A model generated the notes under the pieces. The model saw only the letters and a list, made by a program, of their open reading frames with translations, searched no databases and was not told the DNA's origin. A program made the position numbers and the translations under genes. From IMG/VR virus record IMGVR_UViG_3300025679_000003, positions 1 through 43,466 of that record: a stretch of 43,466 bases of DNA; one strand, written 5' to 3'. The DNA is from a virus. Of this stretch, positions 37,838 through 40,252 are shown one piece after another (position 1 is the first letter of the stretch; each line of letters starts with the position of its first letter).

Positions 37838-39712
37838 GTGGGAAAAAAGAAATCAACAAAAGTGCAGAACGTGCGAAGAAAAGCGACAATCGCTGTCGAA
37901 CCGCAGAGCCTTTCAGTGCCAAAGCGTGCAATACTTGAACCGGGAGCCGCCGTCGCAAATGGACTTGGCGAAGCTCTCGGCTATCCCGGAAATAACAATT
38001 ATTTCGGGGGATCTTTTCCAGGCGGAGGGGTCGGATGGCCGGGCGGGGGTTCCATTCAACCAGTCGAAGACAGCACAACGCTGTTTGAAAACTTGCGCTG
38101 GTATCTCGTATCAAACTTCCGACAATTACTTTCTCAGCTCTTCGCCGAAGTCGGACTCGTCCGAGTCATTACATGCGTGCCCGTTGATGACGGACTTCGC
38201 GGTGGCATTACTTTAAAATCAAAACAGCTCGACGAAGAACAGCTCAAAGAGTTGAAAAACAGAATGGACCGAGACGGAGACATCACGACCGCGGGCTGGG
38301 CCGCGAAGTGGAATCGTCTTTACGGCGGCGCGGGCATTTTGATTTTGGTTGATGACCAAGACCCGGAAGAGCCGCTCAATCTCAAAGCCATTACGCAAGA
38401 TTCAAAAGTTGAATACCGCGCTGTCGATATGTGGGAACTTTATTGGGACCAACAAAACATCGAAGGCGTAAACCTCGACATGGGCGGCGAAGAGTTCGAG
38501 CATTACAATTACTATGCCGAACAAATCCACACCACACGAGTCATGCGCTTGAAGGGTCTCGAAGCTCCGAGCTTTATTCGCCCGCGCTTGCGTGGTTGGG
38601 GATTATCAGAAATTGAAATCCTCGTGCGCTCGGCCAACCAATACTTGAAAGCCACAGACTTAAGCTTTGAAGTGCTCGACGAATTTAAAGTCGATTACTA
38701 CAAAATCAAAAACCTTATCAACACCTTGCTCTCGCCGGACGGAACAAACAAAGTCCGTCAACGTGTGGAGCTTGCAAACTTCCAAAAGAATTATCAGCAC
38801 GCCGTCGTCCTCGACAGTGAAGACGAGTTCGACCAAAAGCAATTGTCGTTCGCAGGCCTCGCTGAAGTCATGGAAGGGATTCGGATGCAAGTCGCTGCCG
38901 ACATGCGAATGCCGATCACGAAACTTTTCGGAACATCGGTCGGCAAAGGATTTCAAACAGACCAAAACGACATGGAGAATTACAACTCTATGGTCGAGTC
39001 CGAAGTGCGCGACAAACTGAAGTACGACATTCTCCGCATGGCTGAAATCAAATGCCAAATGTTGTTCGGGATGATCCCTGATGACCTTGAGCTTGAGTTC
39101 AAACCGTTGCGTGAATTGTCGGCCACCGATCAAGAGGCCGTCAAAACTCAAAAGTTTGCGCGTATCATTCAAGCCAAGCAAGCGGGCGAACTGACCACAC
39201 AAGAATTTCGCGACGCCTGCAACAAGGGCAACTTGTTCGACATTCAGCTCGACACAACTGGTGACGCTGACACATCCGAAGGCGATGACCAGCTCGACGA
39301 TGTACTTGCAGGCAACGGGCTTAAAGACGAAGAGGCCGACGGCGATGATGAACCGGCAGCAAATGAGCCGGACAATGAAACGCCGAAACCGACAAAAAAT
39401 TCTAAACGGGGGGGGGAAGAAATGAACGCAGTTATTTGGCAACCAGGCATGACCTTGGAGTCGATGGAAGACAAGCGCCAAGATTACACCATTCGCGCAA
39501 ATGACGAAGCGAAATACACCGAGCTTAAAAAGCAAATCAAAGAAATGAAAGAAGACATTGAAGTGTTCGGCGGAAGTAGCTGGACCTCTGTCGCTGAAGA
39601 CAAGCGCCAAGATTACACCGAGCGACTGACGAAAGTTTTCGATGAACTCTTTGCAAAAGACACAATCAAAAACCGATTAGCAAAATACTTTAATATGGGG
39701 GTTAGGAAATGA
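37838..39712 (+). CDS. Portal protein (DUF1073-like), read-through form across a G9 tract
   Basis: GTG 37838 with GGGAGA upstream. Core features include WYLVSNFRQLLSQLFAEVGL, the GGAGILILVDDQDPEEPL segment, SEIEILVRSANQYLKATDLS and GTSVGKGFQTDQNDMENYNS, all typical of DUF1073 portals. Residues after ~500 are acidic and Pro-rich. As read, the frame crosses a run of nine G (39408-39416) and continues into a 96-residue extension encoded from 39422. With eight Gs the protein would end TGA at about 528 aa, forming an ATGA overlap with that ORF, the rule in this genome. The true portal is therefore probably ~528 aa. Confidence 0.85.
   Translation: MGKKKSTKVQNVRRKATIAVEPQSLSVPKRAILEPGAAVANGLGEALGYPGNNNYFGGSFPGGGVGWPGGGSIQPVEDSTTLFENLRWYLVSNFRQLLSQLFAEVGLVRVITCVPVDDGLRGGITLKSKQLDEEQLKELKNRMDRDGDITTAGWAAKWNRLYGGAGILILVDDQDPEEPLNLKAITQDSKVEYRAVDMWELYWDQQNIEGVNLDMGGEEFEHYNYYAEQIHTTRVMRLKGLEAPSFIRPRLRGWGLSEIEILVRSANQYLKATDLSFEVLDEFKVDYYKIKNLINTLLSPDGTNKVRQRVELANFQKNYQHAVVLDSEDEFDQKQLSFAGLAEVMEGIRMQVAADMRMPITKLFGTSVGKGFQTDQNDMENYNSMVESEVRDKLKYDILRMAEIKCQMLFGMIPDDLELEFKPLRELSATDQEAVKTQKFARIIQAKQAGELTTQEFRDACNKGNLFDIQLDTTGDADTSEGDDQLDDVLAGNGLKDEEADGDDEPAANEPDNETPKPTKNSKRGGEEMNAVIWQPGMTLESMEDKRQDYTIRANDEAKYTELKKQIKEMKEDIEVFGGSSWTSVAEDKRQDYTERLTKVFDELFAKDTIKNRLAKYFNMGVRK
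39408..39416 (+). repeat. Homopolymer tract of nine G
   Basis: Codons read CGG GGG GGG GAA GAA ATG. Loss of one G gives CGG GGG GGG AAG AAA TGA, a stop that overlaps the ATG of 39422 as ATGA. The tract could also serve as a very strong Shine-Dalgarno-like element for that ATG. Sequencing or assembly error, transcriptional slippage or a phase-variable site could each explain nine. Confidence 0.85.
39419..39469 (+). repeat. 51-bp duplicated segment, copy 1
   Basis: GAAATGAACGCAGTTATTTG onward at 39419-39469 recurs at 39706-39756 with two mismatches. It spans the start codon and first 16 residues (MNAVIWQPGMTLESME) of both adjacent genes. Confidence 0.92.
39422..39712 (+). CDS. 96-aa ORF with duplicated 5' end, fused in-frame to portal as read
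   Basis: Starts MNAVIWQPGMTLESMED, then DKRQDYTIRANDEAKYTELK and a charged helical body ending AKYFNMGVRK. The first 16 residues equal the start of the next gene. The motif EDKRQDYT occurs twice, at residues ~16 and ~59, because 24 bases at 39467-39490 are repeated exactly at 39596-39619. It ends in an ATGA overlap with 39709. By this arrangement it is a separate, coupled gene that was made by duplication, or a portal extension if nine Gs are real. Function unknown. Confidence 0.55.
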   Translation: MNAVIWQPGMTLESMEDKRQDYTIRANDEAKYTELKKQIKEMKEDIEVFGGSSWTSVAEDKRQDYTERLTKVFDELFAKDTIKNRLAKYFNMGVRK

Positions 39713-39756
39713 ACGCAGTTATTTGGCAACCAGGCATGACGTTAGAGTCGATGGAA
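39706..39756 (+). repeat. 51-bp duplicated segment, copy 2
   Basis: Matches 39419-39469 at 49 of 51 positions. The interval between copies is 287 bases. Copy 2 starts the Fis-type HTH gene and is probably the ancestral one. Confidence 0.92.
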
Positions 39757-40143
39757 AAAGAAATCATTCTCGCAGGGCTCAGGTTCTATCGTGGCAACAT
39801 CACGCAAACGGCTTTGTCGTTAGGCGTGGCAGAAAAAACAATCCGCAACAAAATGGAGAAATACGACAATGACAGAAAGCAATTTGAACAAGGACAACGT
39901 GACGCCGAACTCGAACGAGCTGCAATCCTTAAAAGACTCCGAGGCGAAATCCCTGCAAGACCAGTTGAAACTCCGACGCTCGATGACTCTGGCGCGGGCT
40001 TTCACTCGTCCCCTTCCAGGGATGGCATTCAACCCGTTGTTGAAACTTCCGAGAAACATGACATGCCCGTGCCTGTCAGGAAAGAAGTTCAAAGCGTGTT
40101 GCCTCAACAAGCTGCCAATGGCGGTCCCCGTCGCGGACGCTAA
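39709..40143 (+). CDS. Fis-type HTH protein
   Basis: 144 aa from ATG 39709. Residues ~16-50, EKEIILAGLRFYRGNITQTA, then LSLGVAEKTIRNKMEKYD, form a Fis/NtrC-C-terminal HTH (HTH_8). The rest is Lys/Glu/Gln-rich then Pro-rich and ends in NGGPRRGR. From 39869 onward its DNA also encodes the SEC-C protein in the +1 frame (275 bases shared). HTH_8 proteins bind DNA as dimers; in a head operon one might regulate late genes or mark the packaging start. Confidence 0.65.
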   Translation: MNAVIWQPGMTLESMEKEIILAGLRFYRGNITQTALSLGVAEKTIRNKMEKYDNDRKQFEQGQRDAELERAAILKRLRGEIPARPVETPTLDDSGAGFHSSPSRDGIQPVVETSEKHDMPVPVRKEVQSVLPQQAANGGPRRGR

Positions 40144-40252
40144 AAGTTACGCGGAGCAAATGGAGAAACCATATTTGGTTTTTGAAACTGCCGACAACAT
40201 GGAACAGGTCAAAGAGTTCTTGGCAACTTTCGGAATTAAGAGGCAAGCATGA
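39869..40252 (+). CDS. SEC-C motif protein
   Basis: 127 aa from ATG 39869 (GGAGAAATACGAC upstream). The N-terminal half is polar and helical; LPRNMTCPCLSGKKFKACC contains the SEC-C zinc motif (CPCxSGKKxKxCC) known from SecA C-termini and many small proteins. The C-terminal AKSYAEQMEKPYLVFETADN is an alpha/beta end. Start lies inside the HTH gene. It ends in an ATGA overlap with the next gene. The role in the head operon is unknown. Confidence 0.7.
   Translation: MTESNLNKDNVTPNSNELQSLKDSEAKSLQDQLKLRRSMTLARAFTRPLPGMAFNPLLKLPRNMTCPCLSGKKFKACCLNKLPMAVPVADAKSYAEQMEKPYLVFETADNMEQVKEFLATFGIKRQA

Follow-up and report, generated by a model that had tools for sequence, protein, structure and literature searches.

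In Bdellovibrio phage phi1422, a short portal (gp45), an HTH protein annotated as a putative sigma-54-dependent regulator (gp46) and a head morphogenesis protein (gp47) are encoded in succession with 4-nt overlaps of the ATGA type, and the portal ends right at the HTH start. Portal C-termini that carry fused domains are already known, and in polyvalent proteins of the portal/MuF type the C-terminus anchors swappable domains (PMC5512222, PMC9503650). Nine-G tracts inside reading frames have been described in poly-G contingency loci, such as those of Campylobacter jejuni, where the number of Gs in the pseD tract was variable in MiSeq reads (PMC7099621). A survey of bacterial transcriptional slippage dealt with A and T runs (PMC1088944).

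The locus described here is located in a 43,466-base stretch of DNA from an uncultured phage (the window), for which phi1422 is the nearest named phage with 51% identity over the portal core. Since one relative was in addition found inside a Bdellovibrio MAG, the host of the window phage is likely to be Bdellovibrio-like. The window shares the portal-HTH order and the ATGA-type overlaps with phi1422, and HTH homologues come after the portal across the family, but its portal gene carries an extension that phi1422 lacks. As in the polyvalent proteins, portal C-termini of its relatives anchor swappable domains (ART, Nudix-like and zincin-like). The window resembles the contingency loci in possessing nine Gs inside a reading frame, yet differs from them in showing no evidence of length variation or conservation and in that its tract coincides with a Shine-Dalgarno sequence.

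The G tract and the portal reading frame

Profile searches matched the portal core to PF06381 (1.5e-54) and phrog_146 (1.8e-73), which places the protein among phage portals, the gateways for DNA in the virus head, and in an alignment the GTG start at 37838 was consistent with the MGKK... start of the relative L014 (Table 1). Counting of the letters gives nine Gs in a row (G9), with which the portal frame reads CGG GGG GGG GAA GAA ATG, spans the junction peptide KRGGEEMNAVIW and is open to the TGA at 39710-39712. With eight Gs (G8) the portal would end in KRGGKK at 528 aa, its stop at 39423-39425 overlapping ATG 39422 as ATGA, while G10 and G7 would give proteins of 555 and 554 aa, respectively, either of which stops approximately 26 residues further on. 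An earlier note on this DNA had proposed that the tract keeps the portal frame open into a 96-codon extension and that one G fewer restores a coupled stop; translation confirmed the former and the frame arithmetic of the latter is right. Since the portal core is intact at all tract lengths, no obvious on/off phenotype would be expected. The ATGA junctions between late genes, to which the same note had drawn attention, are seen at 39709, 40249, 40650, 41648 and 41998. The fused frame itself ends at the first of these (39709-39712), ahead of the Fis-type HTH gene, which is the usual place in this phage family, and the portal-HTH boundary therefore misses no ATGA.

Table 1. Features of the portal-HTH region (window coordinates)
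Feature	Position	Strand	Remarks
Portal gene	37838..39712	+	624 codons, GTG start; Pfam Phage_portal_3 / phrog_146
Acidic low-complexity linker closing the portal core	39326..39407	+	about DEEADGDDEPAANEPDNETPKPTKNSK; from translation
Nine-G tract	39408..39416	+	5 nt upstream of ATG 39422, at the Shine-Dalgarno position of the relatives' coupled downstream gene
60-nt direct repeat, copy 1	39410..39469	+	Shine-Dalgarno-like Gs and first 16 HTH codons (MNAVIWQPGMTLESME); putative rearrangement scar
ORF2	39422..39712	+	96 codons; shares the portal frame at G9; residues 31-91 resemble the end of the L055 portal tail
Exact 24-nt repeat (EDKRQDYT), copy 1	39467..39490	+	abuts the end of the 60-nt repeat; partner at 39596-39619
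60-nt direct repeat, copy 2	39697..39756	+	portal ORF end, ATGA 39709-39712 and HTH gene start
Fis-type HTH gene (HTH_8)	39709..40143	+	counterpart of phi1422 gp46; PF02954 2.7e-08

Across the window, no other G or C run reaches seven. Under a first-order Markov model, G runs of at least nine are expected approximately 0.09 times in the window, and the relatives contain two G/C runs of nine in 871 kb, so the run alone is uncommon, yet not very improbable.

Homopolymers are a classical site of sequencing or assembly error, and it was considered that the true genome might be G8, with a portal of 528 aa and ORF2 as a separate, translationally coupled small gene. This would give the coupled layout of the neighbouring genes, and the short portal tail of the relative L019 indeed ends in RKK at AAATGA, immediately before the HTH start. 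However, a second assembly (IMGVR_UViG_3300001398_000036), which is 100% identical to the window over 4096 nt and possibly stems from the same sample, also has G9, as do therefore both known contigs of the species. In addition, alignment of relatives' proteins, with coverage mainly of 0-3.5 kb and 33-43 kb, revealed no frameshift in the conserved genes of the window. The agreement of the assemblies and the intact frames elsewhere would favour a real G9, without settling the matter, and as ORF2 is mostly a homologue of a portal tail and is no known separate gene (see below), an error at this position is rather unlikely. The second assembly begins 37 nt upstream of the tract, a position that could reflect assembly difficulty there. 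At its other end (L024:4097-5741) it runs approximately 1.6 kb past the right end of the window, which is therefore an incomplete genome.

The extension and the portal tails of relatives

Residues 31-91 of ORF2 are homologous to residues 824-879 of the portal P0004 of the relative L055 (IMGVR_UViG_3300005664_001634), with 36% identity over 61 aa (BLASTP 8e-11; phmmer 9e-7). P0004 is a single uninterrupted ORF from the portal core through the tail, and L055 is the only relative that shares the tail segment; if the G9 frame is true, the window protein carries an L055-like tail in frame with its core and thus belongs with portals that have a C-terminal tail. When every plus-strand open frame of at least 25 codons from 96 relative loci was searched with phmmer, no stand-alone ORF2 homologue was detected, and tblastn detected no match to ORF2 in phage records. 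The further copies found in viral contigs were just IMGVR_UViG_3300001398_000036 for ORF2 or the tract, and L055 for the tail. Because the homologous tail of L055 is part of one ORF and no stand-alone homologue was found, most of the extension would appear to be portal tail, within which the HTH start is probably a scar. ORF2 belongs to none of the functionally characterised Pfam or PHROG families and, in contrast to the portal/MuF effector fusions, has no recognisable enzymatic domain, so it is not itself a polyvalent effector fusion. Its Pfam and PHROG matches were weak (DUF6376 at 0.0015, under the family cut-off) and were set aside.

While the L055 portal shares with the window both the core family and the tail segment in the same polypeptide, it differs in possessing a HExxH zincin-like domain, identified by inspection of its translation, and in lacking the HTH-start scar. 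Its tail runs on into NSVAF, the start of the relatives' EADGGD-type domain, where the contig ends. The tail domain of the EADGGD...GGKF type is recognisable in 29 of the 70 non-redundant junctions tallied (window included, from two collections), and the number of tail residues past the conserved KGxLFD varies between about 54 and more than 400. The portal tails of L005 and L008 contain an ADP-ribosyltransferase domain (PF03496), and inspection of translations identified a Nudix-like domain in the tail of L071 and also in those of L065, L073 and L090. In L005, L008 and L055 the enzyme-like domain is preceded by a linker of the KHPRAxDGKFGKGG type. From these comparisons the portal tail appears to be a site of domain swapping in the family of the window phage.

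Structure prediction for the fused portal gave a poor model (mean pLDDT 52), with residues 474-538 below 50; the extension was modelled as helical with a confidence somewhat above that of the linker.

The duplicated HTH start and its Shine-Dalgarno sequence

The partner junction at 39706-39712, previously proposed as a duplicate of that at the tract, is real. The 60-nt copies are 92% identical and differ at five positions, two of them synonymous changes within the 16 shared codons. The first 16 residues of ORF2 are the same as those of the HTH protein (Table 1). As ATG 39422 sits in a duplicate of the HTH Shine-Dalgarno sequence and start, the seemingly perfect ATGA at this position would represent a rearrangement scar. 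A simple tandem duplication was rejected, the sequence 5' of 39410 being unlike that 5' of 39697, and these differing upstream flanks indicate that multi-step recombination was needed. A chimeric assembly was judged unlikely, since only 3 nt are common at the repeat junction and two assemblies agree.

GGRGG occurs within the final 27 nt of the portal gene in 27 of 69 relatives, as against 1.7% in the portal body, typically 5-9 nt upstream of the ATG of ATGA, and in 11 of the 69 GGGGG is found in this interval. The tract of the window is placed 5 nt from ATG 39422, as is the GGAGG of L019 before its HTH ATG (GGAGGAAGAAATGA and GGGGGAAGAAATGA, respectively). Because the GGRGG or GGGGG of the relatives sits at the same position, the tract is best seen as a degenerate Shine-Dalgarno sequence that was presumably brought along with the duplicated start. 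None of the 69 relatives has a G run longer than five in the final 30 nt of the portal, and the tract is thus not conserved; conservation would support a phase-variable contingency locus, though such a locus does not require it.

This absence of conservation also bears on programmed transcriptional or translational slippage, by which both portal forms would be produced from one genome. The length of the run makes slippage conceivable and the alternative frame stops neatly at an ATGA, but with a tract that relatives do not share, and with bacterial transcriptional slippage surveyed for A and T runs (PMC1088944), programmed slippage is highly improbable.

The HTH start was located by a simple motif search in 44 junctions, 12 of which (that of the window included) are ATGA, while 18 have space for another gene. 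In L040 (L040:3991-4068) the portal frame misses the ATGA stop and continues for 25 codons beyond the HTH start, a 77-nt overlap that reflects either an indel error or a coupled stop that was lost independently.

In the window, a 127-codon ORF (39869-40252) with a SEC-C-like motif (CPCLSGKKFKACC) shares 275 nt with the 3' part of the HTH gene, in another frame. As this alternative-frame motif recurs over the HTH C-terminus (KEVQSVLP) in 19 listed loci, a count that includes the window as well as its twin contig and a few near-duplicates, this conserved C-terminal region seems to code in two frames.

Proposed origin of the fused portal

Instability is common in G9 tracts. Replication slippage might toggle the phage in a heritable manner between G8, with a short portal and ORF2 on its own, and G9, with the long fused portal. 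Such phase variation would be consistent with the singular nature of the tract in the window, with the clean ATGA and good Shine-Dalgarno spacing obtained in G8 and with the break of one assembly shortly before the tract, and it is conceivable because a tract of such length in a bacterial gene, Campylobacter jejuni pseD, showed variation among reads (PMC7099621). Against this, the G run at this position never exceeds five in relatives, both assemblies are G9, a degenerate Shine-Dalgarno sequence accounts for the tract, there is no evident benefit from switching the portal tail and the core is unaffected by tract length; we therefore regard heritable phase variation as unlikely. The intact ATGA and Shine-Dalgarno spacing at 39422 would permit a separate ORF2 under G8, although a poly-G switch within the Shine-Dalgarno sequence of the next start, which toggles the portal tail between a fused and a free, separately translated form, is quite improbable.

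The reading that we favour, with a probability of roughly 60%, is that G9 is the genuine consensus and specifies one fused portal of 624 codons, in which a +1 slip in the degenerate Shine-Dalgarno sequence probably repaired the frame. The portal would thus comprise a Phage_portal_3 core followed by an acidic linker, then 16 residues of scar from the HTH start and finally a helical tail segment. The earlier note had offered a choice between an error and a switch; its frame facts hold, but the choice omitted this third option, in which the extension is mostly portal tail. It had also held that G9 in all high-quality reads and a full extension in the virion portal, together with relatives encoding the same fused protein, would speak against that choice, and the findings go part of the way: the second assembly is G9, and a homologous portal tail, without the HTH-start scar, is present in one relative.

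Under the favoured reading, illegitimate recombination probably placed a second copy of the end of a short portal gene, with its Shine-Dalgarno sequence and HTH start, inside a longer portal tail, which would have left a portal stop within the tail region at 39423-39425. The Shine-Dalgarno sequence would have drifted from a GGAGG type to an all-G form, which several relatives also have, before the run gained one G by a +1 slip and the frame from the portal into the tail was reopened. The product would be a fused portal in which a helical tail follows a flexible linker, as suggested by the low-confidence model; some free ORF2 may nevertheless arise by internal initiation at ATG 39422. The sequence with its repeats, the tail homology, the G9 of both assemblies and the position of the Shine-Dalgarno sequence are direct observations, whereas we infer the order of events, the production of the fused protein and its presence in virions.

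The locus is most likely a real and fairly ordinary fused gene on a rearrangement scar, and not a proven on/off switch. As such, it exemplifies the rearrangement of portal tails in a Bdellovibrio-phage-like family, and suggests that a Shine-Dalgarno sequence encoded in the end of a gene can decay to a G run, in which a single slip fuses coupled frames. Should variation in tract length be found, the tract would constitute a switch that acts on a structural protein of a phage.
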